From Deltaproteobacteria bacterium (GTDB lineage: Bacteria; Desulfobacterota; Desulfuromonadia; Geobacterales; Pseudopelobacteraceae), in NCBI GenBank assembly GCA_021850095.1, contig JAJZRX010000028.1, positions 1-37,288 on the forward strand: a stretch of DNA of 37,288 nucleotides. The letters run 5' to 3'. Under the pieces are notes generated by a model that was not told the DNA's origin, did not search any database, and saw only the letters and a list, made by a program, of their open reading frames with translations. Of the stretch, positions 1 through 15,893 are shown piece by piece (position 1 is the first letter of the stretch; every line of letters starts with the position of its first letter). A program made the translations under genes and the position numbers.

Positions 1-15
1 CTGTTTAATAAGCAT
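1..15 (-). CDS. 5' end of an unidentified gene, cut by the left edge
   Basis: A Shine-Dalgarno-like GAGAGAGGAACC on the minus strand is followed directly by ATG at 15-13, and the reading begins Met-Leu-Ile-Lys-Gln before the window ends. It lies 89 bases downstream of the binding-protein gene at 105-1145 in the same direction, so it is probably the next gene of that operon. Five codons cannot identify it. By inference only, a permease is the missing partner of the ABC ATPase and binding proteins upstream, and a nitrogenase-like catalytic subunit is the missing partner of the NifH-like protein; either would fit. Confidence 0.5.
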
Positions 16-104
16 GGGTTCCTCTCTCAGATAGAATGGTTGGTCACGCTTCCATAACTACCTGACGGAACTCATGCTTTTCAATTGTTAAAGAGCAAAA
101 TTAC

Positions 105-1145
105 TTACTGATTACTGTGACGAACCTTCTTATAAAAAGTCAGCATCTGCTGATAGACCTTATCTTTAGGATTCTTTTTTATGACCGAATCCAGCGCCTG
201 TTTGTAGATGACGGTATTGATATGCTTGTCGACCGGATAATCCTGGGGAACATATCCGGCCGCCAGAATGTGCTGCCAGAAGTCGAGAATTCCCTTGCGC
301 AGCGGATCCGGGTTTGAGTCGGCCACCTTGTTCACATAAGTTTCATTGCGGATGATATCCTCGTCAATCTTCAATGCTTTGGTATAGACCTTCACGGTTT
401 CATCCGGATTGGTCTTGTAGAATTTGTAAGCCCGGATCAGGGCGGTCAGAAACTTTTTATAGGTTTCAGGATCGGCGTTTACCTTGCCGGTGTGGGCAAA
501 TATACGGCAGCAGGTGTAATCGGGATAAAACTCTTCGATGTAGTGCGAAACCTTGAGCCCGTGATTTTTTTCGGCCAGTGAAAAATGGGGCGGCCAGACC
601 AGGCCGGCGTCAACGGCGCCTTTCTTGACCGCTTCCACCACCGCCGCCGCAGTGCCGAACTCCACGAAGGTCAGGTCCTTTTTCACGTCGATACCGGCCT
701 TCTTGAGGGCGCCCCGGAAAATGACATCACCGGTCGAGAGCTTCACCAGACCGATCTTCTTGCCCTTGTAAACCTTGAGATCCTTGCCGGAAAGCTCCGC
801 CAGCCGTTCCGGCCGGGTGATGATCGCCTGTCCGCCAACCATCATGCCGCCGATGAAGGTGAACTCGCTCCCTTTGCTGATAAAGAGCAGCGGCGCCGTG
901 GTACCGAAGGTGCCGACATCCAGCTTACCGGCCTTGACCGCCGCAACCCCCTCGGCGGCGCTGCCGAACTGGAACAGCTCCACATCCACCCCCTCTTCCT
1001 TGAAATAGCCTTTTTCCTTGGCCAGGAAACACAGGCCGTGAGCCGGTTCCGGAACGTAGCCGACCCGCAGTTTTGGCAGGGCGGCTGCCAGGGCAGCGGA
1101 TGCCAGCAGCGATAAAAACATGGTCAGGGCGATGATTCTTTTCAT
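105..1145 (-). CDS. ABC transporter periplasmic binding protein, NMT1/SsuA type
   Basis: This 346-residue protein opens with a signal peptide (residues 1-20, Lys-Arg then a hydrophobic run ending ALAA). The mature part starts LRVGYVPEPAHGL and continues GYFKEEGVDVEL, the usual first lobe of sulfonate/taurine/nitrate/thiamine-precursor binding proteins, and it has the full two-lobe length of the family. A vicinal pair in YTCCRIF is unusual and could bind metal or form a disulfide. It overlaps the preceding binding-protein gene by 4 bases, so it is translationally coupled in the operon NifX-like, NifH-like, ATPase, short binding protein, this gene. The substrate is not determinable; co-location with sulfur genes suggests a small organosulfur compound (inference). 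Confidence 0.85.
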   Translation of the reverse strand: MKRIIALTMFLSLLASAALAAALPKLRVGYVPEPAHGLCFLAKEKGYFKEEGVDVELFQFGSAAEGVAAVKAGKLDVGTFGTTAPLLFISKGSEFTFIGGMMVGGQAIITRPERLAELSGKDLKVYKGKKIGLVKLSTGDVIFRGALKKAGIDVKKDLTFVEFGTAAAVVEAVKKGAVDAGLVWPPHFSLAEKNHGLKVSHYIEEFYPDYTCCRIFAHTGKVNADPETYKKFLTALIRAYKFYKTNPDETVKVYTKALKIDEDIIRNETYVNKVADSNPDPLRKGILDFWQHILAAGYVPQDYPVDKHINTVIYKQALDSVIKKNPKDKVYQQMLTFYKKVRHSNQ

Positions 1146-1960
1146 TGGTTTTTTCCTCCTGGTGTTTTGTTTTGTGGCACTTTTTTGCCGGTAGCGACCG
1201 GGCAGCAGTCCGGAGTGCAGACCGATTGGCTGGAAAGCTTCTTGAAAACCGGATCATCGGCGGAGCTGTCCAGCAAACGGTCGAGCGCGTCGCAGTAGAT
1301 CTCTTCGTAGACATGATTGGCCAGAAAATCGCGCGGCATGGCGGTGCTCTGCAGACCCAGCGCGCGCCAGACCCGTTCCAGCCGGTAATAATCCGGGTTG
1401 GGGTTGAAGTGCAGTGGATTGCCCAACCGGCTGCCTGGTGCTGCTGATGCGGATTGCAGATCCAGCAAACGGGTGCGATGAGCCCTGATCAATGCAGCCG
1501 TTAACCCGATCATGGTCTGCTTGCCGGTATCCGGCCAGCCCGCTGCGATCAGCACCACGACAGCCCGTCCCTCGATTTCGGCCGGCAGCGTGTCGTCCAG
1601 TTCCGCCAACGGATCGCCGCTGACTGGAGTACCGCCGCCGGCAATGATACGAAATCCCTTGCCGCCGGCAATGGCGCGCAGGCTGTCAGTAATGGCAAAG
1701 GCGCCGGCATCGATCGCACATCTTTCAAGAGCGGCCAATCCCTTGGCCGAGTCAGGGAATGCGACCAGTTCGACCCGCAGCCCCTCCTCGCGGAAATGCC
1801 CCCTTTTCGCGGCAATTCGGCAGAGGGCGCTTCCGGGCTGATCCAGGTAACCAAGGCGGATACTTGGCGTTTCCGACGCTGCAGAGGGGGCGGCAAAGAA
1901 AGACATTGCGGAAGTCATCAGGCAGAGTCCGGCAAGGAGGGCAATCAGCCGCGCCATCAT
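1142..1960 (-). CDS. Short SsuA-like binding protein lacking its second lobe
   Basis: This 272-residue exported protein begins with an N-terminal hydrophobic signal (about residues 1-28). The part SIRLGYLDQPGSALCRIA, then GHFREEGLRVELVAF, closely parallels the start of its neighbour at 105-1145. After about residue 120 it lacks the stretch that forms the second lobe in the neighbour and resumes with C-terminal helices (GLTAALIRAHRTRLLDL, YEEIYCDALDRLL). The tail is Cys- and Lys-rich (CTPDCCP). It overlaps both neighbours by 4 bases (ATGA). I see no frameshift, so it looks like an intact but internally shortened paralogue rather than a decaying gene. It may be a co-receptor, a chaperone or a metal-binding partner; its function is unknown. 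Confidence 0.75.
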   Translation of the reverse strand: MMARLIALLAGLCLMTSAMSFFAAPSAASETPSIRLGYLDQPGSALCRIAAKRGHFREEGLRVELVAFPDSAKGLAALERCAIDAGAFAITDSLRAIAGGKGFRIIAGGGTPVSGDPLAELDDTLPAEIEGRAVVVLIAAGWPDTGKQTMIGLTAALIRAHRTRLLDLQSASAAPGSRLGNPLHFNPNPDYYRLERVWRALGLQSTAMPRDFLANHVYEEIYCDALDRLLDSSADDPVFKKLSSQSVCTPDCCPVATGKKVPQNKTPGGKNQ

Positions 1961-2772
1961 ATCCCCTCTCCTGCCGAGCGTACCGTCTGCCCGCCATCCA
2001 GCTCGGAGAGTATGTTTTCGTGCAGCACGGATACCAGCCTGTCCCGCAGCACCAGGAAAGATTCCTTCAGGTACAGCTCCTGGCGGATGCGGGGGCGCGG
2101 CAGATCCACTTCGAAGACTCCCTTGATACTGCCGGGATTAAGCCCCAGCACCACGATCCGGTTGGCCAGCAGGATTGCTTCCTCGACGTCATGGGTGACG
2201 AAGAAGACTGTTTTGCGTTCGCCCTCTTTCTGCTGCCAGAGTTGTAGCAGCAGATCCTGGATGCGAGCGCGGGTAATGGCATCCAGGGCGCCGAAGGGTT
2301 CGTCCATCAGCAGCACCGGCGAGTTGACCGCAAAAGCCCGGGCAATGGCTGCCCGCTGACGCATGCCGCCCGAAAGCTGACCGGGCAGCTTGTCGCCGGC
2401 ATCCGGCAACCCGACCAGCTCCAGATAACCGGCGGCCGTTTCCCGGTACTCGCTCTTTTTCTTGCCGGGAAAAGCCTGTTCCAGAGCCAGCACAACGTTC
2501 TGGCCGGCCGTCATCCAGGGAAACAGTGAATAATCCTGAAATACGACTCCCCGATCCAGACCGGGCCCGCTGACCGGCTTACCGTCCAGGGTAATACTGC
2601 CGGAGGTCGGGCTGCCCAAGCCAGCCAACAGCCGCAGCAGGGTACTCTTGCCGCAGCCGGAGGGCCCCAGCAGGCAGATGAAATCACCGGCGGCTGCAGT
2701 AAAGGTGATGTCTTGTAAAACCTGACTGGTGCCGTAGGAGTAACCGACATGCTTCAACGCTACTTCATGCAT
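1957..2772 (-). CDS. ABC transporter ATPase, SsuB/TauB type
   Basis: This 271-residue nucleotide-binding subunit has Walker A GPSGCGKST, Q-loop FQDYSLFPW, signature LSGGMRQR, Walker B VLLMDEP and switch THD, all intact. The FPW after the Q-loop is typical of the nitrate/sulfonate/taurine ATPases. I take the ATG at 2772 (protein MHEVALKHVGYSYG) because an AAGGG Shine-Dalgarno precedes it; a longer frame to 2859 would overlap the NifH-like gene. It lies 11 bases after the NifH-like gene and overlaps the next gene by 4. No permease is encoded beside it in the window; it could come from the cut gene at the left edge or be borrowed from the transporter at 6257-8898. Confidence 0.9.
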   Translation of the reverse strand: MHEVALKHVGYSYGTSQVLQDITFTAAAGDFICLLGPSGCGKSTLLRLLAGLGSPTSGSITLDGKPVSGPGLDRGVVFQDYSLFPWMTAGQNVVLALEQAFPGKKKSEYRETAAGYLELVGLPDAGDKLPGQLSGGMRQRAAIARAFAVNSPVLLMDEPFGALDAITRARIQDLLLQLWQQKEGERKTVFFVTHDVEEAILLANRIVVLGLNPGSIKGVFEVDLPRPRIRQELYLKESFLVLRDRLVSVLHENILSELDGGQTVRSAGEGI

Positions 2773-2783
2773 ACATAATCCCT

Positions 2784-3659
2784 TCAAATACTCTGGCCGG
2801 CGCTGCGCACCTCGCCGGTTTCGATCGCCATCAGCTGATCCGACCAGTCGGCCGCCCATTTTCGCAGTTCATGCACATCCAGCGGCTCCGGCACCTTTGA
2901 CTCCCTATGGCCGGCAATGCGGGCCGCCAGGTTCTGGTAGACCCTGGCCTGGTCAGAATCCGGAAAGGCCTCGATGGTGGTCTTGCCCTGCAGCTCGGAC
3001 TGGGTGACCGTAATCGAGCGGGGCACGTATTCGATGACCTGGGTATTGGTACGATCTACGAAATCATCGATGATATGCCGCGCATAGGGAGCGTTGACGG
3101 AGTTGGCTATCACCCCCCCCAGCAGTGCCCCGCCGTTTTTGGAGTACTTTTTGATCCCGGTGAAAAGGTTGTTGGCGGCGTAAATGGCCATAAAATCCGA
3201 TGACGACACCGTAAAAACATGCTCGGCGATCCCTTCCCGGATCGGTACCGCAAATCCGCCGCAGACAACATCGCCCAGCACGTCATAGATCACGTAATCC
3301 AGATCAAGCGCTTCGAAGACCCGCTGCTGCCTGAGCAGTTCCACGGCGGTGATAATGCCGCGCCCGGCGCAGCCAACTCCGGGAGCCGGGCCGCCGGCCT
3401 CCACGCAGTAGACGCCGTTGAAGCCGCTGTAGACCAGATCTTCGGCTTTGGCATTTTTCTTTTCGCGCAAGGTATCCAGGATGGTGGGGATGTATTCGCC
3501 ACCCCGCAGCGTAACGGTGGAATCGCTCTTGGGATCGCAGCCGATCTGCATCACCCGGTAACCGGCCACCGACAGGGCGGCGCTGATGTTGGAGGTGGTG
3601 GTGGACTTGCCGATGCCGCCTTTGCCGTAGATTGCTATCTGTTTTGGTTTCTTTGCCAT
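2784..3659 (-). CDS. NifH-like iron protein (nitrogenase-like reductase component)
   Basis: This 291-residue protein carries every landmark of a NifH-type ATP-dependent electron donor: P-loop GKGGIGKST (residues 12-20), switch GCDPKSDST (40-48), first cluster cysteine in GVGCAGRG (Cys97, with the Arg100 equivalent) and second cluster cysteine in LGDVVCGGF (Cys133). A dimer should therefore hold one [4Fe-4S] cluster and pass electrons to a partner. A C-terminal extension ([13 protein letters not shown]) is shared with the paralogue at 15027-15893 and is unlike the core family. The Shine-Dalgarno is GAGGGG. It sits between a NifX-like gene and ABC transport genes, and no NifD/NifK homologue is in the window. 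It is therefore more likely a group IV type nitrogenase-like reductase (such as methylthio-alkane reductase) than a nitrogen-fixing NifH. This assignment is inference; the fold and ligands are seen. Confidence 0.92.
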
Positions 3660-3683
3660 GGTTCCCCTCGATTTTGGTTGGTA

Positions 3684-4028
3684 TTACTTCAGGTAGCTGA
3701 AGCGCTTGGTTCTGATCAGCGTCCTGATCGCATCATCAATCGTACCGGGCAGCGCAAAACCCATGATCCGCTGCAGCAGCAGAGCATCGATTGCGCCACC
3801 ACCGATCCGGGCCGCCACCACCCCGCGGCAGTCCGCCAAGCTCCGCGCGGTTGTTTCCAGAGCACCGTCATCGTGCGCCTGAAAGGAGCACACTGGCCGG
3901 GTAGTCCTTGTTTCAACAAATTCATGTCCGCCATCCTGCAGCCGGTAAATCTGAAAAACCGTTGAGCGCCCGAAATGCTCGTTGACCGTCACTCCGTCGC
4001 TGCTGGCAAATGCAATTTTTACGTCCAT
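3684..4028 (-). CDS. NifX/NafY-type FeMo-cofactor-binding family protein
   Basis: This 114-residue protein begins MDVKIAFASSDG and has VNEHFGRSTVFQIY, the signature of the dinitrogenase iron-molybdenum cofactor-binding family (NifX, NafY and the NifB C-terminal domain), which carry cofactor precursors. Later parts also match: GVVAARIGGGA and GFALPGTIDDAI. I chose the ATG at 4028, preceded by AAGGAGCC; an upstream in-frame ATG at 4085 lies within a terminator-like hairpin and is not credible. It is the first gene after a strong promoter (4147-4175) and attenuator leader, ahead of the NifH-like gene. Its pairing with a stand-alone NifB-like gene (5271-6137), which lacks this domain, suggests the two split the job done by fused NifB-NifX proteins. 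Confidence 0.88.
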   Translation of the reverse strand: MDVKIAFASSDGVTVNEHFGRSTVFQIYRLQDGGHEFVETRTTRPVCSFQAHDDGALETTARSLADCRGVVAARIGGGAIDALLLQRIMGFALPGTIDDAIRTLIRTKRFSYLK

Positions 4029-4052
4029 GATCCGGCTCCTTGCCGCACAAAC

Positions 4053-4114
4053 AAAAAAAGAGGCCAAGGCAAAGAGCAGCTTCACTCTTTCCTTGACCTC
4101 CAGTTTTCTGGTCA
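4053..4114 (-). promoter_or_regulatory. Attenuator-like leader 1 (two hairpins plus U-run)
   Basis: On the minus strand CTGACCAGAAAACTGGAGG forms a first hairpin (CCAG loop AAAA CTGG, 4100-4111). It is followed immediately by a second one with arms 4091-4099 and 4061-4069 (AGGTCAAGG with CCTTGGCCT, extended by AAAGAG with CTCTTT), then seven U residues at 4053-4059. The second hairpin looks like an intrinsic terminator and lies upstream of the NifX-like start codon, so expression must require read-through. Three similar leaders occur at 6155-6205, 9807-9870 and 15933-15991. Confidence 0.8.
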
Positions 4115-4146
4115 GTCGTGTATGCGGTTTTTATAAACTTTTGGGG

Positions 4147-4175
4147 ATAGTAGCAGCTCCCTGCGGGAGTGTCAA
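4147..4175 (-). promoter_or_regulatory. Promoter of the NifX-like/NifH-like operon
   Basis: The -35 is TTGACA (4170-4175, minus strand) and the -10 is TACTAT (4147-4152), with a 17-base spacer. Transcription should start near 4140 and give a leader of about 110 bases containing the attenuator. The spacer is an inverted repeat, CTCCC-GCA-GGGAG (4157-4169), so a repressor bound there would sit between the two promoter hexamers. No TATCTA-N9-TAGATA box is present here, unlike at the other sulfur promoters. Confidence 0.7.
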
Positions 4176-4180
4176 GATAC

Positions 4181-5269
4181 TTATACTATTTCTATTTGTT
4201 TAATAGACATTACTGGCTCGACGGCCGCCCAACGGCCATACTCCCGGGCAGCCGCCATCAGGGCATGAACATTTTCCGGCGGGGCGTTGATCGGCAGGGC
4301 GCAGCCCAGGCCAAGGATATAACCTTTCGGGCTCCCGACCCCCTTGGCCAGGCATTCGCGCACATTGGCCTGCACGTCATCCGGCGTTCCCAGCACCATG
4401 CTGGCAGTGGGACGGATATTGCCCAGCAGCGCCACCCGCTCACCGACCGCCGCCCGCGCCTCGGCCAGATCAACTTCGTCGTCCAGACTCAATACGCTGG
4501 CGCCGCTGTCAGCCATGTCCTGCCAGATTTTGCCGGTGTTGCCGCAGACGTGCAATGAGGGCGCGGAACCGGCCAGCCCTGCCAGGAGTGAAATCAGTTC
4601 CTTCAGGTACGGCAAGGCGAACTCACGAAACAGGCGCGGGCTGATCAGGGTGCCGGACGCCACCGGCTCCGCCAGGCCGATTCGCCCTCCCCGGGCAATC
4701 GCCTCGCGGGCAAAGGGGATGATGCTGTCGGTGGCAAAGCGTAGCAGGCGATGCACAAAATCGGGATCACGCCGCAGGTCACGCAGGAACTGCTCCGTAC
4801 CACGAAGATTGGCGGCAGTGGTAAAGGGGCCGGCCGTGGTCAGCGATACCGGAACCTGATCCCCAACCTCCTTCAGCACCAGGGCGGTCGCCTCCAGAAA
4901 GAGCGGCAGCCGGCCGGCGCTGTTCGGGTCCGGAATCTTCAGGCGCTCCAGATCCGCTTCGGATTGGACGGCATAGCCGACAACGTATGCCGTATTATCC
5001 GGAAAAGCCAATCGGCTGCCGATCGCCTCGGCAATCCCGGTCAGGCCGGGGCCGGTGTTGATCAGATCCATGCCGTAGCGGCGCCAGGCTGCCAGCTGTC
5101 CGTCCGCCATCAGCCGGGCCGAGGTCTGATAGTCCGCCACGCTGACTCCGATGGTTCGCGCGGCATGGTCGCTGATCAGCAGGTAAACCGGGATGCGGTC
5201 GTAGGGCTTGCCGGACAGGGCCGCCAGCGATCGTTCCCGGGAGCTCATGGTTTCTTTGAATAGATCCAT
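4181..5269 (-). CDS. MtaA/UroD-fold corrinoid methyltransferase
   Basis: This 362-residue protein of the uroporphyrinogen decarboxylase-fold family belongs to the MtaA/MtbA branch, in which a zinc site activates a thiol or another methyl acceptor or donor for exchange with a corrinoid protein. The zinc ligands are visible: HVC (His240, Cys242) and GLGC (Cys323). The start at 5269 follows the NifB-like stop by one base and has GGAGG upstream. It closely resembles the paralogue at 13282-14352 in motif spacing. A true heme-pathway HemE lacks this HxC...C set, so that role is unlikely. Being in the NifB-like transcription unit links methyl transfer to the nitrogenase-like genes. The methylated substrate is unknown. 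Confidence 0.85.
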   Translation of the reverse strand: MDLFKETMSSRERSLAALSGKPYDRIPVYLLISDHAARTIGVSVADYQTSARLMADGQLAAWRRYGMDLINTGPGLTGIAEAIGSRLAFPDNTAYVVGYAVQSEADLERLKIPDPNSAGRLPLFLEATALVLKEVGDQVPVSLTTAGPFTTAANLRGTEQFLRDLRRDPDFVHRLLRFATDSIIPFAREAIARGGRIGLAEPVASGTLISPRLFREFALPYLKELISLLAGLAGSAPSLHVCGNTGKIWQDMADSGASVLSLDDEVDLAEARAAVGERVALLGNIRPTASMVLGTPDDVQANVRECLAKGVGSPKGYILGLGCALPINAPPENVHALMAAAREYGRWAAVEPVMSIKQIEIV

Positions 5270-5270
5270 A

Positions 5271-6137
5271 TCAGGCCGCCTCCCGGTCTTCCCGCATGCT
5301 CACCTCCGCGCAGCCACTACCAATCAATCCAATCGCATCGGCCCGGCATTGGCGGCAGCCCCGGAACTGCCCGATAATCCCTTCATTGGCGATACGCACC
5401 GATTCGAGGTAGTCATCCGCGGGCGCTGCGGCCAAAGCCAGTTCAGCCTGCGGTATCAGCGGCATGATGTTCATCAGATAAGCTCCCAGGCCAGCGATCT
5501 TCTCGGCGATCAAAGGGATCTGGCCGTCATTGATTCCCGGCATCAGCACACTGTTGACCTTGACCACCAATCCCGCTTGCGCAGCCAGCCGCAGCCCTTC
5601 AAGCTGATGCTCAATCAGCAGGGCTGCGCCTTCAATCCCGACCTGGCGATTTCCCTGATAGTTGACCTGTCGGTAAATGCGCGCCCCGACAGCAGGCGAA
5701 AGCGCATTGATGGTTATCGTCAGGCTGTGCAGATTAACATCGATCAATTCATCAATTTTATCCGGCAGCAGAAGACCATTGGTGCTGAGGCAGAACATCA
5801 GCTCGGGGAATTCAGCCCTGATCAGCCGGAATGTCTCGAAGGTTTCATCGTTGGCCAACGGATCTCCCGACCCGGCAATGCCGACCACCTTGATGATCTT
5901 GCCGAGCAGATCATGGTTCATGGCCCCACGCACCTGATCCAGCGCCTGCAGCGGGGTCACTATCCGGCTGGCCACACCCGGGCGGGATTCATTGGCGCAG
6001 TCATGCTTCCTGTCGCAATAGGCACACGTGATATTGCAGCGCGGCGCCACCGCCAGATGGATGCGGCCGTTTTTGTGACGGTCGCCGCCGAAACAGGGAT
6101 GACCGTGCAGAACTTTTGTTGTGTTGGATATGCTCAT
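5271..6137 (-). CDS. NifB-like radical SAM cofactor-assembly protein
   Basis: This 288-residue protein starts with HPC (Cys15), followed by the radical SAM cluster motif CNITCAYC (Cys34, Cys38, Cys41), then DRKHDCANESRPG (Cys47), and ends with CRQCRADAIG (Cys261, Cys264). These are hallmarks of NifB, which fuses two [4Fe-4S] clusters and inserts carbide to make NifB-co, the core of nitrogenase cofactors. It has no NifX-like domain at the C-terminus; that domain is encoded separately at 3684-4028. SAM-binding GSGDP is present. The Shine-Dalgarno is CGGAG. It is preceded by an attenuator leader and followed one base later by a corrinoid methyltransferase gene. A complete NifB beside a NifH-like gene implies a NifB-co-derived cofactor for an enzyme encoded elsewhere. 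Confidence 0.9.
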   Translation of the reverse strand: MSISNTTKVLHGHPCFGGDRHKNGRIHLAVAPRCNITCAYCDRKHDCANESRPGVASRIVTPLQALDQVRGAMNHDLLGKIIKVVGIAGSGDPLANDETFETFRLIRAEFPELMFCLSTNGLLLPDKIDELIDVNLHSLTITINALSPAVGARIYRQVNYQGNRQVGIEGAALLIEHQLEGLRLAAQAGLVVKVNSVLMPGINDGQIPLIAEKIAGLGAYLMNIMPLIPQAELALAAAPADDYLESVRIANEGIIGQFRGCRQCRADAIGLIGSGCAEVSMREDREAA

Positions 6138-6154: not shown

Positions 6155-6205
6155 AAAAAGAGGCCGAAGGATTGATTCCCCCGGCCTCCAGTTTTTCTGG
6201 TCAGC
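6155..6205 (-). promoter_or_regulatory. Attenuator-like leader 2
   Basis: Minus strand: first hairpin CCAG-AAAAA-CTGG (6188-6200) preceded by GCTGA, then hairpin with arms 6182-6188 and 6160-6166 (GAGGCCG with CGGCCTC) and U5 at 6155-6159, just before the Shine-Dalgarno of the NifB-like gene. It lies in the 119-base gap after the ABC ATPase gene. A weak promoter TTGAAT-N17-TTAAAC starting at 6237 is possible, but the leader may equally be read from the upstream transporter operon. Confidence 0.78.
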
Positions 6206-6256: not shown

Positions 6257-7057
6257 TCAAATGGCGTATGCAAACGGTTTGTCTTCCTGTCTGAAAAACT
6301 CGGCATAGATCGCACTACGCAGCTGGGTAAATTCATAGCTGCCCCGGTCGCGTGGACGGGGCAGATCCACCGGTATGATTTTTTTGATGGTACCAGGCCT
6401 GTTGGACATGATTATCACCTGGTCGCCAAGGAATACCGCCTCGTCGATATCATGGGTAACAAGCAGCATGGTGGCCTTTTCCTTCTGCCAGATACGGAGT
6501 ACCTCCTCCTGCATCTGAATCTTGGTCAGGGCATCCAGCGCCCCGAACGGTTCGTCCAAGAGAAGGGCCCGGGGGCGATTGGCCAGGGCCCGGGCGATGG
6601 ATGCCCGCTGAGCCATACCGCCGGAGAGCTGATGGGGATAGGCATGCTCGAATCCATTCAGACCAACTAGATCGATGTGCTCATCGACCGACTCCCAGTC
6701 ACTTTCCGAGGTACTGTTACCAAGCCCGAAAGCAACATTCTGACGAACCGTCAGCCAGGGAAACAAGCGGTGTTCCTGAAAGACGACGCCACGATCAAGT
6801 CCTGTCCCACGGATCGGCTCACCTTCGAACTGCGCGGTTCCCTGGTAATCGGTCTCCAACCCTGCAATGATGCGCAGCAGGGTACTCTTGCCGCAGCCGC
6901 TGCTGCCGATAATGCTGACAAACTCCCCTTGTCGCACAGTCAGACTGATGTCCTGCAGGGCGGTTACCGTACCGCCATTAACGGAAAACATTTTGGTGAG
7001 TCCCCGAATATCAAGTGCGGTCCTGCCACGATCTGTTACTCCTGCGTGTGTCATCAA
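6257..7057 (-). CDS. ABC transporter ATPase, SsuB/TauB type
   Basis: This 266-residue nucleotide-binding subunit has Walker A GSSGCGKST, FQEHRLFPW, signature LSGGMAQR, Walker B ALLLDEP and switch THD. Together with the permease (7054-7905, overlapping by 4 bases) and the lipoprotein receptor (7918-8898) it makes a complete importer of the nitrate/sulfonate/taurine family. Two tandem ATGs (7057 and 7054) are possible starts. The substrate cannot be assigned from the ATPase. Confidence 0.92.
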   Translation of the reverse strand: MMTHAGVTDRGRTALDIRGLTKMFSVNGGTVTALQDISLTVRQGEFVSIIGSSGCGKSTLLRIIAGLETDYQGTAQFEGEPIRGTGLDRGVVFQEHRLFPWLTVRQNVAFGLGNSTSESDWESVDEHIDLVGLNGFEHAYPHQLSGGMAQRASIARALANRPRALLLDEPFGALDALTKIQMQEEVLRIWQKEKATMLLVTHDIDEAVFLGDQVIIMSNRPGTIKKIIPVDLPRPRDRGSYEFTQLRSAIYAEFFRQEDKPFAYAI

Positions 7058-8945: not shown

Positions 8946-9782
8946 TCAATAAATCCGATTGCCCGAAGAGCCGTGCCGGCGCTGGTGCACCCAACTGCTG
9001 TAGTTTGGGTCTTCGGGGTTTTTATCCAGAGCGTCTTTTTCTTTGAGATACAGGCCGATGTTGGTACTTTCATAGAGCTGGCGATCCTCGCCAACCGGAC
9101 AGACTTTGCAGCATATGCCGCACGGCCAGCGGTTTTCCTTACGCAGTTCCATGTGATAACGGGTACAGGCATCCATATTCATATCGGCGATCAGCGAGTC
9201 CTGCCGGGTAGTGAAGGCTTGCGATGGGCAGAGCTTGCGGCAGACATCGCATTTGGTGCAGATATCTTCGCTGATCACCGGGTCACCTGCCAGTTCGAGG
9301 CTGGTAAAGATAGAGACCAATCTTACCCTGGGACCGTATTCGCGGGTAATCAGATTGTGGCTGTAGGCGATTGTCCCCTGACCGGCGTATTTGGCGGCAA
9401 AAACGTGGCTGAAGCAGCCCTGGTACTTGTTCAGCAGAATTTCCAGATTGCCGTAGCCATCGCGGGGCATAAAGATTGATGAGTGTCCCCGCTCGTTGAG
9501 CCAGACAGACAGACGGAAACCGATTTGATCCAATAAAACATTGCTGGTGTTGTACATCTCCTGATAATTGATGGAGGGGGTACTCTCCAGCACCGGCAGC
9601 AGCATCGGTACACCGATGACAATAACCGTTTTGGTCTTGTCCCAGAGAGCCTTTGGCCGGTATTCCGGCTGAACCTCGCCATACTCATCCCACCGAGCGA
9701 CAGGCGCGAAGTTTACCAGGCTGGCTCCCAGACTTTTCGTTTTCCTGATAATCTTTCCCTTCATCCCTTTTGACGTCGTCAT
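8946..9782 (-). CDS. QueG-like double [4Fe-4S] corrinoid-reductase-family protein
   Basis: This 278-residue protein resembles epoxyqueuosine reductase (QueG) and the reductive dehalogenase core. The N-terminal part has GHSSIFMPRDGYGN and GQGTIAYSHNLITREYGPR, as in the cobalamin-binding region of that family. Then come two ferredoxin-like clusters, CTKCDVCRKLC (Cys175/178/181/185) and CGICCKVC (Cys221/224/228) with Cys206 between. It lacks the HEAT-repeat tail and the length of true QueG (about 380 residues). As first gene of the transporter operon, behind an Rrf2-type operator and an attenuator, it is more likely a dedicated reductase or an electron donor to a corrinoid than a tRNA-modifying enzyme (inference). 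Confidence 0.8.
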   Translation of the reverse strand: MTTSKGMKGKIIRKTKSLGASLVNFAPVARWDEYGEVQPEYRPKALWDKTKTVIVIGVPMLLPVLESTPSINYQEMYNTSNVLLDQIGFRLSVWLNERGHSSIFMPRDGYGNLEILLNKYQGCFSHVFAAKYAGQGTIAYSHNLITREYGPRVRLVSIFTSLELAGDPVISEDICTKCDVCRKLCPSQAFTTRQDSLIADMNMDACTRYHMELRKENRWPCGICCKVCPVGEDRQLYESTNIGLYLKEKDALDKNPEDPNYSSWVHQRRHGSSGNRIY

Positions 9783-9806
9783 CTCTCGTCCCCGATCGCG
9801 CGTATT

Positions 9807-9870
9807 AAAAAACTGGTGCCCGAGCTGTCCTCACGAACGCGATTCCCTGGCTTCCAGTTTTCTGGTCAGC
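9807..9870 (-). promoter_or_regulatory. Attenuator-like leader 3
   Basis: Minus strand: GCTGACCAGAAAACTGGAAG gives the shared hairpin (9854-9865). The downstream part ends ACCAG followed by U6 (9807-9812). Here the 3' arm CTGG of the first hairpin can instead pair with the CCAG just before the U-run, so the two structures are mutually exclusive: a switch-like arrangement clearer than in the other leaders. It lies within about 110 bases of leader before the QueG-like gene. Confidence 0.65.
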
Positions 9871-9901: not shown

Positions 9902-9925
9902 TATTAACTTACCCAATATTGTCAA
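9897..9925 (-). promoter_or_regulatory. Promoter of the QueG-like/SsuABC-like operon
   Basis: Minus strand -35 TTGACA (9920-9925), 17-base spacer, -10 ATATCT (9897-9902). The -35 is perfect and the -10 weak. Transcription from about 9890 gives a leader holding attenuator 3. Confidence 0.6.
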
Positions 9926-9970
9926 CAAAAATTCTATGGTCACTGAAAATTACGCATCGGTATTGATGAC

Positions 9971-10510
9971 TCAACCCATCTGGTAGATGGCGGCCACCGC
10001 ATGACTGCGATAGTAGTGGCTGATGCGACGCAAACCATGGGGTGTAAGAAGACCGTCCAACTCCTCATGGGTCAGGGTCTTGGAACATTCGGTACAGGAA
10101 AAGTAATCTCTGCAGGCTGAATCGCAGCTCACCTGAGGCTGGCGGCAGCGCACCTCCATCAGCAGGTAACCACCCGGTTTCAGGTTGGCAACGGCATTAT
10201 CCAGATAGGCATGCCGTTCGGCGCTGTTCATGATGATGTTGAAGACATAGGTGGACAGCACCAGATCCACATTGAGATTGCTTTGGGGCAGTTCGTCGGT
10301 GGCCAGCAGGCGTTCGATGTACATCAGGGCCGGGCAGCCGCGCAGTTTATTTACCTGCTCCGGAAGATCGGCGGCATAGACATTAAACCCTTCCTGCGCC
10401 AGATAAACCGCATTGCGCATGGTGCCGGTGCCGTAATCAAGCACATCCATGGCTTGTTGTGTCTTGAAAAAACGACTGTAACGCTTGATGCTTTCAGCTA
10501 CCGCAGCCAT
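9971..10510 (-). CDS. Class I SAM-dependent methyltransferase with Cys4 insert
   Basis: This 179-residue protein has the SAM-binding motif VLDYGTGTMRNAVYLA (from residue 23), an acidic end of strand two (YAADLP) and the NLKPGGYLLMEV motif, so it is a Rossmann-fold methyltransferase. Near the C-terminus is an unusual insert CDSACRDYFSCTEC (Cys129, Cys133, Cys139, Cys142; CX3CX5CX2C), likely a zinc or Fe-S site. The start at 10510 has GGGGAG upstream. Its promoter region contains a candidate Rrf2 operator nearly identical to that of the transporter operon, so it should be co-regulated with sulfur genes. The methyl acceptor is unknown; a thiol, a metal or a small organosulfur compound are possible. 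Confidence 0.8.
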   Translation of the reverse strand: MAAVAESIKRYSRFFKTQQAMDVLDYGTGTMRNAVYLAQEGFNVYAADLPEQVNKLRGCPALMYIERLLATDELPQSNLNVDLVLSTYVFNIIMNSAERHAYLDNAVANLKPGGYLLMEVRCRQPQVSCDSACRDYFSCTECSKTLTHEELDGLLTPHGLRRISHYYRSHAVAAIYQMG

Positions 10511-10538
10511 AGTGCTCCCCTTTCTTTAAACAATATAT

Positions 10539-10559
10539 TAACTATGTTTTTTATAGATA
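10539..10559. promoter_or_regulatory. Candidate Rrf2 operator at the Cys-rich methyltransferase gene
   Basis: Plus strand TAACTA-N9-TAGATA; minus strand TATCTA-N9-TAGTTA. It sits about 30 bases upstream of the start codon at 10510. A poor promoter TTGATG-N17-TAAATA can be drawn from 10586, with the box overlapping its -10, the same geometry as at 9881-9901. Confidence 0.6.
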
Positions 10560-10601
10560 TTTACCACGTGGAATGAAAAACATCAAGGGTAAATCTCGTC
10601 A

Positions 10602-12263
10602 TCAGAACCCCATTGCCCCCATGAAGACCCGCTCAAATTCCGGGCTCCCAGCCAGATCGACCACCCGCACCTGCTCGACACTCTGCTGCAGCTGCTGCCT
10701 GAGACCCCGGTTCAGCAGCAGCATTTCGGCGCCGCTGCGGGAGGTGTTGCCGACGAAGGCAACTTTTCCGGTCGTCTCGGGGGGAAGCAAGCCCAAAGTC
10801 AGCAGGCTCCGCTCGCGCAGATGATAGCCGAACGATCCGGCGATCAGCACCCGGTCCAGATCGGCGGCACTTCGTCCGGCCTCTTTAAGCAGCAGTTCGA
10901 TCCCGGCCCGGATGGCGCCCTTGGCCAGCTGGACCTGACGGATATCCTTCTGACTGAGCAGCACCTGCCCTTGCAACTGGAAGGCGCTGACACCATCGGT
11001 TTTTATGATACGCTCGGCCAGGGTCTGGTTGATTGCGCCGGACTTGGGAACTGTCAGCCGACCGCTGGGTCCGATGATGCCTCCCTCAACCAGTTCAGCC
11101 ACCAGGTCCATCAGCCCGCTGCCGCAGATCCCGGTCGGTTCCGTGCCGCCGATCACACCCATATCCAGCAGCCCGTGAGGTGAAATATCGACCCGTTCGA
11201 TGGCACCGACCGCCGCCCGCATGCCGCAGGAGATGTTCATCCCCTCGAAGGCCGGGCCGGCGGCCGTGGCGGAGGCGGTCAGGCGGCCATCGCTGGCCAG
11301 CACCAGCTCGCCATTGGTGCCGATGTCTATGAAGAGCGTCGTACCCGGCAGCGCGGCCAGATCGCTGGCCAGAATACCGGCGCTGATGTCGGCTCCGACA
11401 TAGGCCGAAATCACCGGCGGCAGATAGACCAGCCCAGCCGGAGCGATCTTCAGACCGAGATTGGCGGCTTTCAGGTGCTGTCCGCCCCTGATGCCGGGCA
11501 GGAACGGATTTTTCCCCAGGGGGGCGGGATCGACACCGGCCAGCAGATGCAGCATGCAGGTATTGCCGCTCAGAACCGCTTCGTAGATTTTTCCGCTCTC
11601 CATTCCTGTTTCAGCAAACAATTCTTCCAGCAGACGATTAAGTTCGCCCACAATATCCCGCTGCATCAGTTTCAGCCCGTTTTCGTCGGCGGCAAAACGG
11701 ATCCGAGACAATACATCCTGGGCATGCAGGCTCTGGGGATTGAGGGATGAAGCGCTGGCCAGCGTTTTGCCATTGCCGAGATCAACCAGCGCTGCCGCCA
11801 GGGTGGTTGTGCCGATATCCACCACCAGACCGGGATTATTGCCACTGCTGTCTCCGGGTTCAATCGCCAGGAGGCTGTCTCCGGCGAAGATATTGGTCTG
11901 ATCGGCAACACGGTCATATCGCTTCCGGATCAATGGTTCCAATCCAAACTCGACCGCGGCACCGGCGCTGATCACCCGCAGTCCTTCTTCTCTGCATTGA
12001 GGAACTTCTACAGTCACATTGCCGAAAACCTCGGCATGGCAGGCCAAAACGGCACCTTCGCCGTCGTCGGGCGGTGCGTTCATATGAACGACCAGCTTGA
12101 CCAGATCATCGACCGGCAGACGAACCAGGCATTTGCCGCAATGTCCGGCGCCGTTGCAGGGCGCTTCGATCAGCACGCCGGCCCGGCGCGAAGCTTCCAG
12201 AATAGTAGTCCCATTGGGAACATCAACAGTGCGGTTATCGGGTTTAAATGTGACGATCGGCAT
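10602..12263 (-). CDS. RACo-type reductive activator of corrinoid proteins
   Basis: This 553-residue protein has an N-terminal [2Fe-2S] ferredoxin domain (Cys36, Cys42, Cys45, Cys75; CNGAGHCGKC motif), a linker, and a C-terminal ASKHA-fold ATPase region starting VVDIGTTTLAAALVDL, with later nucleotide-binding glycine motifs (TLFIDIGTNGELVL, GICGSGLMDLVAEL, VLIAGSFGYHLRERSL). RACo proteins use ATP to drive one-electron reduction of inactive Co(II) corrinoid to Co(I). It is the last gene of the operon and overlaps the preceding methyltransferase gene by one base (TGATG). The target is presumably the corrinoid protein at 14352-15005. Confidence 0.92.
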   Translation of the reverse strand: MPIVTFKPDNRTVDVPNGTTILEASRRAGVLIEAPCNGAGHCGKCLVRLPVDDLVKLVVHMNAPPDDGEGAVLACHAEVFGNVTVEVPQCREEGLRVISAGAAVEFGLEPLIRKRYDRVADQTNIFAGDSLLAIEPGDSSGNNPGLVVDIGTTTLAAALVDLGNGKTLASASSLNPQSLHAQDVLSRIRFAADENGLKLMQRDIVGELNRLLEELFAETGMESGKIYEAVLSGNTCMLHLLAGVDPAPLGKNPFLPGIRGGQHLKAANLGLKIAPAGLVYLPPVISAYVGADISAGILASDLAALPGTTLFIDIGTNGELVLASDGRLTASATAAGPAFEGMNISCGMRAAVGAIERVDISPHGLLDMGVIGGTEPTGICGSGLMDLVAELVEGGIIGPSGRLTVPKSGAINQTLAERIIKTDGVSAFQLQGQVLLSQKDIRQVQLAKGAIRAGIELLLKEAGRSAADLDRVLIAGSFGYHLRERSLLTLGLLPPETTGKVAFVGNTSRSGAEMLLLNRGLRQQLQQSVEQVRVVDLAGSPEFERVFMGAMGF

Positions 12264-13285
12264 CAGGCTTCCTTTACAGTGTCGGTCATGGCACGGATGG
12301 CCGCAATAGTTGTTGCGGTACTCAGGCCGCAGGCCGGAGAAATGATGTCGATCCGGTCCCGGACCAGCGTCTCGGTGCGGCGAGAGACCTTTTCCGGGTT
12401 CCCGCTCTCCAGCAGAATCGTGCTCAGGTTGCCCATCGTGGTCAGCTGCGGATATTCCTGTTTGAGCAGCTTCAGGTTGACAAAGGCATCGGTACTGATG
12501 GCGTCGGCGTGCAGCAGCGGGATCGACGGCTTGACCGCCTTCATCTCGCCGCAGATATGGACCAGCACCGGCACGCCGGCGGCGTGGATGCCGTCGATGA
12601 CCTTGTTGAGATAGGTGACGGCGTACTCATCGAACATGCGTGGCCCCAGGATCTCGCCGGTGGCGGTCGGGTCGCCGATGCAGATCGCGGTGGCGCCGCT
12701 ATCGACCAGGGTGTGGGCGAAAGCGATCAGGAAGTTGCTGACGTACTCCAGCACGCGGTGGGCGGATTCCCGTTCCTTGCGCAGTTCTTTCAGGAATTGC
12801 ATCGGATCCACCAGTGACGCGGCGGTGCTGATCGGTCCGGTCAGGCTGCCGATGAGCGGCTGGTCAGGATGCAACCGTCCCAGACGCTCTGCGGCGCCGG
12901 CCACCTCGGAAATCCGGCCGCTCTGCAGCATGGAGGGGATATTCCGGAAGACGACCTCTTTGACCGACGGGAACAGCTCCCGGGCGATCTTCGGCTCACA
13001 GGCCAGCGTGCCGAAATCGATCTCGCTCCCCAACACCTCGGCCTCAACAGTCATGCAGAACGGGATGCCGATATTTTCGAAGCCGGTCTCACTATGTATA
13101 TCGCCGGCCAACTCAGCCATACGGCCGGCCTCGAAATGGGCCTCCGGCAAGGTATGGCCACTCCTGGTCATGACATCGACAATCGCGGCGTTCATCATGC
13201 CGCCGGTGCAAATCACCGGCGGGCGATCGACCCGCTTTTTTGCCAGGGTGTCCAGCAGGCGTTGTTTGGGACTGAGGCTGCTCAT
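12263..13285 (-). CDS. MtaA/MtbA-like corrinoid methyltransferase (UroD fold)
   Basis: This 340-residue UroD-fold protein has the zinc-ligand set HIC (His243, Cys245) and SPACG (Cys319). It is more diverged from the other two copies in the window than they are from each other: it lacks the SPKGFIVASGC-type segment and has CTGGMMNAAIVDVM near the N-terminus. It overlaps the upstream methyltransferase gene by 4 bases and the RACo-type gene by 1, with Shine-Dalgarno AAGGAG. In two-component corrinoid systems one such protein takes the methyl from the substrate and another hands it to an acceptor; two different copies beside one corrinoid protein fits that division (inference). Confidence 0.87.
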   Translation of the reverse strand: MSSLSPKQRLLDTLAKKRVDRPPVICTGGMMNAAIVDVMTRSGHTLPEAHFEAGRMAELAGDIHSETGFENIGIPFCMTVEAEVLGSEIDFGTLACEPKIARELFPSVKEVVFRNIPSMLQSGRISEVAGAAERLGRLHPDQPLIGSLTGPISTAASLVDPMQFLKELRKERESAHRVLEYVSNFLIAFAHTLVDSGATAICIGDPTATGEILGPRMFDEYAVTYLNKVIDGIHAAGVPVLVHICGEMKAVKPSIPLLHADAISTDAFVNLKLLKQEYPQLTTMGNLSTILLESGNPEKVSRRTETLVRDRIDIISPACGLSTATTIAAIRAMTDTVKEA

Positions 13286-14352
13286 GAATCACTCCTTGAA
13301 AGTATGTCGGCATCGACCGGCCAACCGATCTCGGCTACCGCGTCAACCATAGCCCGGATGTTGGCAAAAGGGGTTTCGGTCGGCAGGCTGCAGCCGGAGG
13401 CAACGATAAAACCTTTGGGACTGCCGCCGGCCTGGGCGACACAATCCCGCACCGCCCGCCTGACATCCTCGGGGGCCCCCTGCAGCATGATCTCCGAAGG
13501 ATGCACATTGCCCATGATGCGCACCCGGTCGCCCACGGCATGAACGGCGCCGGCCAGGCTGGCGTCGTTGTCGATGCTGATGCAGTCCGCCCCGGCATCG
13601 GCCATCAGCTGCCAAACCTTTTCGGTCTTGCCGCAGATGTGCAGGGTAACCGATCTGCCCTGACCATGGATGAACTCGATCAGGCGCTGCAGGTAGGGGT
13701 AGGAAAATTCCTTGAACTGGCGCGGTCCGATCACGTTGCTGGACGACATCGGGTCGGTCAGGCTGGGGGTGCAGCCGGCGGCAATTATGGCAGCCGAGTA
13801 GCGTATCGCCGATTGTAGTGCCACCTCGCAGAGTCGGTGCACCGCTTCGGGATTTTTGATGGTCAAACGCACCAGGTTCTCGGCGCCGATCAGAAAAGAA
13901 GCGGTCGTGAAGGGGCAGCTGACCGCGCCGGTGACCGGCACTTCGTGCCCCAGCGCCTCAACCGTCCGCTGCATCGCCTCCAGGTGGCTGGGGAGGTTGC
14001 CGTCCCGGCTAGGCTCGACCGGCTGCAGCTTTGAAATATCTTCAATTGAAGTAATAGCCGGAGCCGCCAGGTAGGCGGTTTCGTCCTCCGGGTAATGCAC
14101 CCGCGCCCCCATCGCCTCCGCCAGCGTGTAGAGGTCGGTAAAGACCCGGATCACGTCATAGCCGAATTTTTGGTAGGAAGCGATCTGGGCCTCGGCGATC
14201 AGCTTGCCGTTGCCACGGAATTGCGAAACCTTGGCTCCAATGACCCGAGCAGCAGTGTTGCCAATGATCGGTACGCAGGGCAGACGGTCGATTGGCTCTC
14301 CCTTGGCATAGGCGGCCAGGCGTTGCAGCGGCGTCATCAATGCGAGTGACAT
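13282..14352 (-). CDS. MtaA-like corrinoid methyltransferase (UroD fold)
   Basis: This 356-residue UroD-fold methyltransferase has zinc ligands HIC (His238, Cys240) and SGCSLP (Cys321). Its order of motifs (GNTAARVIGAKVSQFRGN, PFTTASFLIG, SPKGFIVASGC) matches the gene at 4181-5269, with which it is clearly paralogous. It follows the corrinoid protein gene with a one-base overlap (TGATG), indicating tight co-translation. The substrate is unknown. Confidence 0.88.
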   Translation of the reverse strand: MSLALMTPLQRLAAYAKGEPIDRLPCVPIIGNTAARVIGAKVSQFRGNGKLIAEAQIASYQKFGYDVIRVFTDLYTLAEAMGARVHYPEDETAYLAAPAITSIEDISKLQPVEPSRDGNLPSHLEAMQRTVEALGHEVPVTGAVSCPFTTASFLIGAENLVRLTIKNPEAVHRLCEVALQSAIRYSAAIIAAGCTPSLTDPMSSSNVIGPRQFKEFSYPYLQRLIEFIHGQGRSVTLHICGKTEKVWQLMADAGADCISIDNDASLAGAVHAVGDRVRIMGNVHPSEIMLQGAPEDVRRAVRDCVAQAGGSPKGFIVASGCSLPTETPFANIRAMVDAVAEIGWPVDADILSRSDS

Positions 14353-15005
14353 CAGGCGTTACCCACCAGTTCAAGGGCCACTTTGACCGCTTCGGCGGCG
14401 TTGACCGCATAGCCGTCGGCGCCGATCCGCTTGGCGAAACCGGGCGAGATCGGCCCTCCCCCAACCATGACCTTTATACCGTCACGGATGTTGCCCTCGC
14501 TCAACAGTTTTACGACCGTGCCCATGCCATCCATTGTGGTCGTCATCAGCGTCGAAAGGGCGATGATATCGGCCTTGGATTCGCGGGCTGTGTCCACGAA
14601 GCGCTGGGGCGGGACATCGCGCCCCAGATCGATGACCTTGAATCCGCCGGTTTCAAACATGATCCGCACCATGTTCTTGCCGATATCATGGGTATCCCCC
14701 TCGATGACGCCGATCACGATCGTGCCCCGGCTTTCGCCGACCTGCTTCAGGTGCGGCTTGAGTACATCCAGACCTGCGTACATGGCATCTGAACACATCA
14801 ACAGTTCCGGGATGAAATACTCTTCTTCCTCGAACAGTTGCCCGGCCCGCGCCATGCCGTCCGAAAGCCCCTGCTGGATCGCGTCGTAGGCATCCACACC
14901 GGCCTCAAGCGCAGCGTTGGCCGCCGTTACCGTTCGTTCCTCATCCATATCCACTACGGCATCGGACAGATCTATGAAAAATGACTCTTTGCTTTTCAAC
15001 ATCAT
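14352..15005 (-). CDS. Corrinoid (B12-binding) methyl carrier protein, MtbC/MttC type
   Basis: This protein of about 217 residues has the helical cap of methyltransferase cognate corrinoid proteins (residues 20-90, EEEYFIPELLMCSDAM) followed by the B12-binding Rossmann domain with DTHDIGKN (the DxHxxG motif with the cobalt-ligating His near residue 106), then GG-PISP and the C-terminal strand. It carries the methyl group as methyl-Co(III). Three tandem start codons are possible (TTG 15008, ATG 15005, ATG 15002) behind AGGGGG; I favour an ATG. It lies between the pseudo-NifH gene and two methyltransferase genes. Confidence 0.92.
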   Translation of the reverse strand: MMLKSKESFFIDLSDAVVDMDEERTVTAANAALEAGVDAYDAIQQGLSDGMARAGQLFEEEEYFIPELLMCSDAMYAGLDVLKPHLKQVGESRGTIVIGVIEGDTHDIGKNMVRIMFETGGFKVIDLGRDVPPQRFVDTARESKADIIALSTLMTTTMDGMGTVVKLLSEGNIRDGIKVMVGGGPISPGFAKRIGADGYAVNAAEAVKVALELVGNA

Positions 15006-15026
15006 CAACCCCCTCTATATTTTAAT

Positions 15027-15893
15027 TCAAATAGCGGCCCCATCGCTGACCAGTCCGTTTTCCATGGCATACAGCCGGTCGGCCCATTCCCGGGCCCAGT
15101 TTCTCAATTCATCAGCAGTCAGCGTCCGCGGCTGATTTTTGATCTTCAGAGAATTGGCCTGGTCCACAATCTGGTTTGCCAGACGCCGGTAATAATAAGC
15201 CTGGGTGGAAAGCGGCGCCGCTTCGATGACCGTTTTTCCATACAGCTCGCACTGCCGGACCATCAGTGAGCGCGGAACCTGTCCCAGAGTCTGGGTTTTT
15301 GTATGGTGTGCGAAATCATTGACGAACGACTCCTCGAATGAATTGCTGATCCCGTTGGGAATCAGCCCTCCGAACGGAACAGCGGGCCGGGCTTCCCCCA
15401 GATGCTCCAGCGTGGCATAGATCCTGTTGACCGCGCTCAATGACGTGAAATCCGCATTAGTTACGACATAAACCAGCTTGGCTCCCCGTTGACGAATTGG
15501 CTCATGATATGCGCTCAAAGAGTGTTCACCGGACAGGTCATACAGCACATAATCCGGCCGGGCAGCCTCACCAAGTCCTGACAGTTCACTCTGTTCGAAC
15601 AGTTGCTCTAGAGCAGCTTCACCATTGCCCGAATCTCCCAGTTCAAGACACTCAACACCTTTGAAGCCTGTATGGACAGTATCTGCAATCGAGATGCGTC
15701 CATGCTTGCGCAGGTGATCAGCTAGCGTTGGAACCGAAATTCCACCGTTGAGGATACTGGTCGAATCACCCTGGGGAGCGCAGCCGACCTGCATGACCTT
15801 GAAGCCGGTTTCAACTAACGCGGCGCTGATGTTGGATATGAGTGTCGATGTGCCGACACCGCCTTTGCCGTAAAACAGTATATGGTCACTCAC
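15027..15893 (-). CDS. Degenerate NifH homologue without cluster ligands or P-loop Lys
   Basis: This 288-residue protein keeps the NifH fold and length and the same C-terminal extension (ELRNWAREWADRLYAMENG) as the active-looking paralogue at 2784-3659, but its active site is gone. The P-loop reads GKGGVGTST (Thr15 replaces the catalytic Lys), the DPK switch reads GCAPQGDS, the loop with the first cluster cysteine is deleted, and the second is Leu126 (SGEHSLSAY). It cannot bind a standard [4Fe-4S] cluster and probably does not hydrolyse ATP normally. I chose GTG at 15893, with AGAGG six bases upstream; an ATG at 15923 lies beside the terminator U-run without a ribosome site. The frame is long and intact, so it seems selected, perhaps as a regulator or docking subunit. 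It heads the corrinoid operon. Confidence 0.85.
   Translation of the reverse strand: MSDHILFYGKGGVGTSTLISNISAALVETGFKVMQVGCAPQGDSTSILNGGISVPTLADHLRKHGRISIADTVHTGFKGVECLELGDSGNGEAALEQLFEQSELSGLGEAARPDYVLYDLSGEHSLSAYHEPIRQRGAKLVYVVTNADFTSLSAVNRIYATLEHLGEARPAVPFGGLIPNGISNSFEESFVNDFAHHTKTQTLGQVPRSLMVRQCELYGKTVIEAAPLSTQAYYYRRLANQIVDQANSLKIKNQPRTLTADELRNWAREWADRLYAMENGLVSDGAAI

Follow-up and report, generated by a model that had tools for sequence, protein, structure and literature searches.

A nitrogenase-like and corrinoid gene island behind repeated leader hairpins in a member of the Geobacterales, with a probable role in sulfur scavenging

The 37,288-nucleotide stretch analysed here (the window) is the entire contig C25 of a draft genome of a Deltaproteobacteria bacterium of the Geobacterales (3.4 Mb in 118 contigs, about 90% complete). 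Its left part holds an island of nitrogenase-like genes, MtaA-type methyltransferases, a corrinoid protein with its RACo-type activase, a QueG-like iron-sulfur protein and two Ssu/NMT1-type ATP-binding cassette (ABC) importers, all encoded on the minus strand (Table 1). Upstream of the island lie cysK, an Rrf2-family regulator, cysN, a gene with a PAPS-reductase domain and an ABC importer. An earlier note, made from the sequence alone, had described these genes as lying on one strand beside cysK and the sulfate assimilation operon, and this is borne out by Pfam and NCBIfam scans. Judged by gene spacing, the cluster has four transcription units, each preceded by a copy of a short leader hairpin, P1. 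We consider it fairly probable that the island scavenges sulfur by reductive cleavage of imported methyl-sulfur compounds and corrinoid demethylation, with the sulfide passed to CysK and expression under transcription attenuation.

Table 1. Features of the window, with positions counted from its first letter
Feature	Positions	Strand	Basis or remark
Repeat end, insertion-sequence type	1..126		Breaks assembly; contig C30 inferred on other side
SBP1, SsuA/NMT1-type substrate-binding protein	105..1145	-	Final codons extend into repeat end
Degenerate binding-protein paralogue	1142..1960	-	NMT1_2 match over residues 28-101 only; kept in relatives
ABC ATPase, SsuB/NtrCD type	1957..2859	-	Family scans
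NifH, MarH-type Fe protein, both cluster cysteines and intact P-loop	2784..3659	-	PDB match, motifs
NifX-like cofactor carrier	3684..4028	-	Family scans, start corrected
Leader copy 4, P1 hairpin overlapping terminator	4053..4116	-	Precedes nifX-nifH-ABC
MtaA3, URO-D methyltransferase, His-Cys-Cys zinc ligands	4181..5269	-	Family scans, ligand alignment
NifB, radical SAM, without NifX domain	5271..6137	-	Family scans
Leader copy 3	6155..6205	-	Precedes nifB-mtaA3
ABC ATPase 2 (SsuB-like)	6257..7057	-	Family scans
SsuC-like permease	7054..7905	-	Family scans
SsuA-family binding protein	7918..8898	-	Exceeds TIGR01728 cut-off
Short iron-sulfur protein, related to C-terminal part of QueG/reductive dehalogenases	8946..9782	-	Family scans
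Leader copy 2	9806..9870	-	Precedes queG-like/ABC-2 operon
S-adenosylmethionine (SAM)-dependent methyltransferase	9971..10510	-	Family scans
RACo-type corrinoid reductive activase	10602..12263	-	Family scans
MtaA2, His-Cys-Cys	12263..13285	-	Family scans, ligand alignment
MtaA1, His-Cys-Cys	13282..14352	-	Family scans, ligand alignment
Corrinoid carrier protein, DTHDIG motif	14352..15008	-	Family scans, motif
NifH-like protein without both 4Fe-4S cysteines, without P-loop Lys	15027..15923	-	Family scan, motif alignment
Leader copy 1, compensated inner stem CCGG/CCGG	15934..15991	-	Precedes nifH-like-corrinoid-mtaA1-mtaA2-RACo
cysK, cysteine synthase	16200..17153	-	NCBIfam
Rrf2-family regulator	17218..17679	-	Nearest named equivalog CymR, under its cut-off
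tRNA-Cys gene	28918..28992		Near sulfur genes
Multihaem cytochrome	33398..37201		19 CxxCH motifs in its reading frame

The start of nifX was placed at ATG 4028 and not at GTG 4085, because the earlier codons fall within the leader hairpin and terminator. The repeat at the left end (bases 1-126) also occurs at eight other contig ends, with 97-100% identity. Four PF00148 domains were found in the genome: contig C116 encodes a fused NifEN, and the other two domains form a pair on C30, a contig of 7.3 kb, where a binding protein and a permease are followed by NifD and NifK. This pair corresponds to the NifD/NifK-like genes that the earlier note had suggested seeking left of the window: in relatives such as G003 and G046 the order ATPase, half binding protein, SBP1, C30 binding protein, C30 permease and NifD is contiguous, and SBP1 orthologues, 81-91% identical, lie near C30-type DK genes in Geobacteraceae relatives. 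As the order is contiguous in relatives and the window ends in a recurrent repeat, we infer that C30 continues the cluster across the repeat.

The closest solved relative of the C30 NifD is not NifD of nitrogenase but MarD of methylthio-alkane reductase (MAR), with 228 bits compared with 118 bits for the best NifD-type entry; NifK matches MarK best (278 bits). The identities are about 31% to MarD and about 37% to MarK. The named sequences nearest to the C30 NifD are from Geobacteraceae such as Oryzomonas. In a 58-row alignment of D subunits, the three P-cluster cysteines, Trp195, Cys270, His375 and His429 are present in all 30 C30-type rows; the three matching cysteines of the K subunit are found in 31, 32 and 32 of 32 rows, with one gap. 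The Rhodospirillum rubrum MAR, MarBHDK, is similar in its NifH, NifB and NifDK-type parts, the P-cluster cysteines, Cys270 and His429, and Arg428 beside His429 is proposed there as a possible hallmark (PMC12552129). The C30-type D differs in that Arg428 is absent from all 30 rows, owing to a one-residue gap, as is His194 (Ile in 29, Val in 1), while the positions of Cys73 and Gln74 are mostly Ala and Met. The Phe199 position is Tyr in 30/30. As a separate observation, Pro replaces the His429 ligand in four D rows, which come from G046, G050 and G056.

In a tree of D subunits the C30-type clade (support 98/98) stands apart from the MarD rows (100/100) and spans Thermodesulfobacteriota, Bacillota, Spirochaetota and Acidobacteriota; long branches are flagged for the NifE outgroup, L112 and others. 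The tree comprises open reading frames (ORFs) of 420-700 amino acids after removal of duplicates, which reduced 64 D rows to 58 and 66 K rows to 60, with partial and fused frames excluded; one D comparison also excluded rows below 80 bits or 300 amino acids, C116 and G045. Alongside the C30 type, genomes G043 and G040 have MarDK-like genes that share 71-80% identity with those of R. rubrum, which argues for a different substrate. Judged by sequence, the DK pair is MAR-like but not MAR, the C30 clade having been compared directly with R. rubrum MarD and MarK and set apart from IsrD of isethionate reductase by published description. A predicted structure of C30 NifD from an 8-row alignment was too poor to be used (mean pLDDT, the predicted local distance difference test score, 56). 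In other relatives PF00148 matches are more numerous: G043, G054, G056 and G055 have 12-16 per genome, NifDK, NifEN and fragments counted in, suggesting several nitrogenase-like DK pairs besides NifDK and NifEN.

The Fe protein encoded in the window fits a MAR-like partner. It has both cluster cysteines and Walker A, and scores 479 bits against MarH in the MAR structure 9fmg (next entry 275 bits), while also exceeding the NCBIfam nifH cut-off (398.8 vs 394.35). The window NifB reaches 299 bits to TIGR01290 nifB, below the cut-off of 344. A search of the assembly with the cluster-less NifH homologue gave just two NifH-family genes, both in the window, which leaves the window NifH as the sole intact Fe protein seen in this roughly 90% complete genome. 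In the other of the two both iron-sulfur cysteines are gone and Thr replaces the P-loop Lys; it is not an ordinary Fe protein. Both cysteines are also missing from the homologues in G046 and G050 and, read by eye, in G014; the G030 and G043 homologues lack the second and have a Cys aligned at the first position. Only the window and G043 copies have an altered P-loop. As G014 has the gene behind cysK and the leader but without any C30-type NifD, the protein is not simply a part of the reductase. Such homologues, without one or both cysteines, recur behind the same leader (window 15027-15923, L163:3555-4424 and L149:1612-2439).

The linkage to the corrinoid genes extends to other genomes. Among 141 genomes of the order, an orthologue of the corrinoid protein was found in 22 of the 25 with a C30-type NifD (a match of at least 73% identity, split matches included) and in 5 of the 116 without. 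The corrinoid matches listed fall into two groups, with at least 56% or at most 42% identity, and the first was counted. Fisher's p of 5e-18 is descriptive only, the genomes being related. In 34 named loci with C30-type NifD, several of them short and two being contigs of one genome, we found an ABC importer (33 loci), MtaA (27), cysK (18), the corrinoid protein (18), RACo (16) and MarH-type NifH (13). Of 73 MtaA rows, counted with repeated contigs left in, 70 have His-Cys-Cys as zinc ligands; the exceptions are one HCH row, one truncated row and a C116 protein that is unrelated. The His-Cys-Cys type is linked to sulfur or selenium substrates in a survey (PMC10418091).

The layout varies among relatives. 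G046 has a single run of ATPase, binding proteins, permease, NifDK, corrinoid protein, MtaA1, MtaA2 and RACo. In Clostridium polyendosporum, MtaA2, RACo, DUF1847, permease, ATPase, NifB, NifX, NifH, substrate-binding protein, MtaA, NifD and NifK follow each other on one strand, and in Treponema loci one strand carries most of the set, MtaA standing immediately 5' of NifD. In G030 the C30-type DK comes after an NlpA lipoprotein-type importer gene, and behind it stand two genes for SrpI-type encapsulins and one for a class-V aminotransferase; a pyridoxal phosphate enzyme of Cys/Met metabolism lies two genes behind the NifH-like gene of this genome. At L064:14913-17861 and L094:16003-17910, C30-type DK is directly followed by two encapsulin genes of SrpI type and one for a long class-V aminotransferase. 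No SrpI encapsulin was found in a search of the source genome, a search equally silent in control genomes, so that absence is not shown.

The same genes could also be read with DK as a sulfonate reductase that converts an Ssu-imported sulfonate to sulfite, and the corrinoid genes as a separate methionine-salvage module sharing only the regulon. The isethionate reductase IsrBHDK offers a precedent, being nitrogenase-like, releasing sulfur and occurring with an SsuCAB importer (PMC11423573); the window binding proteins are likewise of the SsuA family, and in Oryzomonas japonica L095 the DK and ABC genes stand without any corrinoid or MtaA gene within 10 kb on either side. However, according to that report IsrD keeps one of three P-cluster cysteines and misses the Cys275 and His442 equivalents, and thus most of the cluster ligands kept by the C30 D, in which the three cysteines and Cys270 are invariant; IsrB is described there as not NifB-like, whereas the window NifB is. 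In addition, an MtaA gene lies immediately 5' of NifD in Bacillota and Treponema loci. We therefore regard a sulfonate reductase as unlikely and prefer the scavenging of methyl-sulfur compounds, with both parts in one pathway.

The leaders in the window (at 15991, 9870, 6205 and 4116) share the consensus G-[CU]-UGA-CCAG-ANAA(A)-CUGG-A[AG]-GC, the 3' strand of which doubles as the 5' strand of a terminator. The cysK-Rrf2 genes of the window showed no P1 ahead of them. Folding of the full leaders, chiefly as the terminator, gives -20 to -35 kcal/mol, while P1 alone gives -6 to -7 kcal/mol (two copies tested); with the terminator fold being far more stable, P1 would need help to prevail. The scripts scored no terminator for the copy at 9870; its fold includes a competing hairpin with a U run at the end.

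Frames were collected by the common unpaired letters and one fixed G of the outer stem, giving 157, of which 77 have an overlapping terminator and 80 do not. In the terminator frames the inner stem has four Watson-Crick pairs in 71 cases and three plus a G-U pair in 4 (75 fully paired), and both outer pairs form in 74; four inner pairs are present in 8 of the frames without a terminator. A reversed-sequence control gave neither four inner Watson-Crick pairs nor a terminator in any of 57 frames. The inner stem occurs as CCAG/CTGG, CCGG/CCGG, CTAG/CTAG, CTGG/CCGG and CCGG/CTGG, and the middle outer pair as G-C (59), A-U (6) or G-U (4), without a mismatch in 69. Leader sites were kept only if the terminator pairs with the shared strand, so that agreement of the far strand is partly built in, while the outer P1 pair was unselected. 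In a pair test on 32 of the 61 distinct hairpins, the cells paired, the double-change cells and the covariation score exceeded all 500 shuffles, and two measures counting pairs or types did not. P1 covaries in both helices.

These pairs bear on whether P1 acts as RNA at all, or whether a repressor or activator binds the repeats as DNA operators. In favour of operators, the core forms a short palindrome, and at two sites, in G261 and G200, no terminator was seen beside P1 in the stretch examined; yet P1 and a terminator have a strand in common at 70 of 78 fully paired sites, the outer pair is standard throughout although unselected, and the inner stem shows paired replacements, which makes operators distinctly unlikely. 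A search for such operators by k-mers and 5-bp dyads yielded no convincing palindrome, and the leader motif surfaced instead. In G261 and G200 (L185, L186) P1 stands close 5' of the start codon of a 393-amino-acid ORF, where it may act by another mode of control. No Rfam family reached its gathering score in the window, and a permissive search of further stretches gave only unrelated sub-threshold hits, tRNA aside. RAT and ANTAR-target antiterminators, the latter known from the antitermination of Geobacter nif genes, are likewise small hairpins overlapping a terminator; their sequence, loop and target genes differ, and the P1 loop, which does not fit the ANTAR consensus, leaves the ANTAR idea unsupported.

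Of 78 leader sites, 60 were assignable by similarity to the query set. The targets include NifX (13), rhodanese (8), NifH-like (5), a 424-amino-acid protein (5), Rrf2 (4), ABC ATPase (4), MetK (4), NifB (3), metY (2), cysK (2) and cbiM (1), frequencies that are biased, as the 128 sources were picked for the cluster or the motif. Names of metK, rhodanese and cbiM come from Pfam and that of metY from reading by eye; MetK was Pfam-verified at one site (L169) and recognised by an N-terminal motif at others. With the leader before metK, metY and cysK and with cysK in about half of the named loci, the link of homologous clusters to sulfur genes, on which the earlier note had staked its proposal, holds. 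The 424-amino-acid protein (L038:12825-14096 and relatives) has closely spaced cysteines and no Pfam match. Order-wide, a loose pattern hit 89 of the 141 genomes, with about 230 sites vs about 35 for the reversed pattern, chance coding hits included; it was present in 24 of the 25 genomes with C30-type NifD and in 65 of the 116 others. In the source genome it hits four places, two window leaders and two within coding frames, and misses two of the four window copies. A stricter pattern was found in 6 of 395 genomes phylum-wide, at least one hit being an apparent coding chance hit (L184). S-box elements have been reported in Geobacter for metIC and metX (PMC545781).

The pairing of nitrogenase-like and corrinoid genes is itself not new. 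A 2023 report placed MarHDK-like genes within or close to corrinoid clusters of the non-selenium group and proposed methionine salvage or methyl-sulfide use, and its type I mlp gene clusters (MGCs) resemble the island in combining at least two URO-D methyltransferases of the His-Cys-Cys type with a corrinoid protein, RACo and nearby nitrogenase-like genes (PMC10418091). The island differs from type I MGCs by two Ssu-type importers, a distinct DK subfamily, the cluster-less NifH homologue and the P1 leaders. Hence, of the new system that the earlier note had suggested, the pairing was already on record, and what appears new is the C30-type DK subfamily with its residue signature and importers, and the P1 attenuator before four operons; no earlier account of either the clade or the attenuator was found in the open-licence literature. 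A further-reaching reading, plausible but tentative, is that P1 represents a new class of cis-regulatory RNA (a riboswitch or protein-dependent antiterminator) for methionine/SAM or sulfur status, governing a new [Fe8S9C]-reductase subfamily distinct from MAR and Isr, the methylated product of which is passed to a dedicated corrinoid S-demethylase.

On the gene content, families, conserved ligands, synteny, co-occurrence and covarying hairpin/terminator pairs observed, a pathway can be proposed. The two importers would take up a small methylated sulfur compound (or a sulfonate), and the window NifH with the C30 NifDK would cut its C-S bond reductively at the expense of ATP. The reductase would hold an [Fe8S9C]-type cluster supplied by the window NifB and perhaps carried by NifX. 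The MtaA-type zinc enzymes may transfer the methyl group of the substrate or of released methanethiol to the corrinoid protein, kept reduced by RACo, and then to another thiol, with the freed sulfide going to CysK. Unstabilised P1 would let transcription stop, while P1 held by a ligand or an RNA-binding protein would allow the genes to be read, probably as an antiterminator responding to methionine/SAM or sulfur status. The joint methyl transfer and nitrogenase-like sulfur release that the earlier note had put forward is thus partly supported, by gene linkage and synteny, with substrate, order of steps and signal as proposals.

Several observations weigh against this scheme. C30 is a separate contig, placed beside the window across the repeat by the gene order in relatives. 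The repeat would separate the importer from DK in the source genome, an ORF on the opposite strand was read by eye between the C30 permease and NifD, and no P1 was found on C30, which together make the expression of DK in this genome uncertain. Among the 34 named loci, P1 was found in only 11, and 7, some of them short contigs, have neither corrinoid protein nor MtaA. The corrinoid orthologue was not found in 3 of the 25 genomes with C30-type NifD. Conversely, it is present in G037, G045, G100 and G084, which have true MarDK or other DK clades (by PF00148 in the first two and by NifD query in the last two) and not the C30 type; as these are four of the five exceptions, the corrinoid link is wider than the C30 clade. 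Ssu-type binding proteins form a broad family, and the NifHDK part and the corrinoid part might be two parallel pathways.

That the corrinoid part recovers methyl-selenium, as most type I MGCs supposedly do, with the nitrogenase-like part unrelated, we consider very improbable: although most type I MGCs are tied to selenium in PMC10418091, MarHDK-like genes are placed there with non-selenium MGCs, the island adjoins cysK, Rrf2 and sulfate assimilation genes, and no selenium gene is present among the window proteins scanned, selABD elsewhere in the genome not having been searched for. A nitrogen-fixation set or remnant under nitrogen control is hardly credible, since, even with the window NifH above the nifH cut-off and NifEN and another NifB elsewhere in the genome, the D subunit is far nearer to MarD than to NifD, relatives hold further, better-scoring NifDK/NifEN-type domains elsewhere, and both the neighbours and the metK and metY genes behind leaders in other genomes relate to sulfur.

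If the proposed pathway is true, nitrogenase-type chemistry would be extended past its presently known reactions and coupled to B12-dependent methyl transfer in a single sulfur pathway of anaerobes from several phyla. The many PF00148 domains in relatives, up to 16 in one genome, suggest a diversified enzyme family liable to be annotated as nitrogenase, just as the window NifH passes the nifH cut-off. The leader hairpin provides a marker for tracing the regulon and a testable candidate for a new regulatory RNA.

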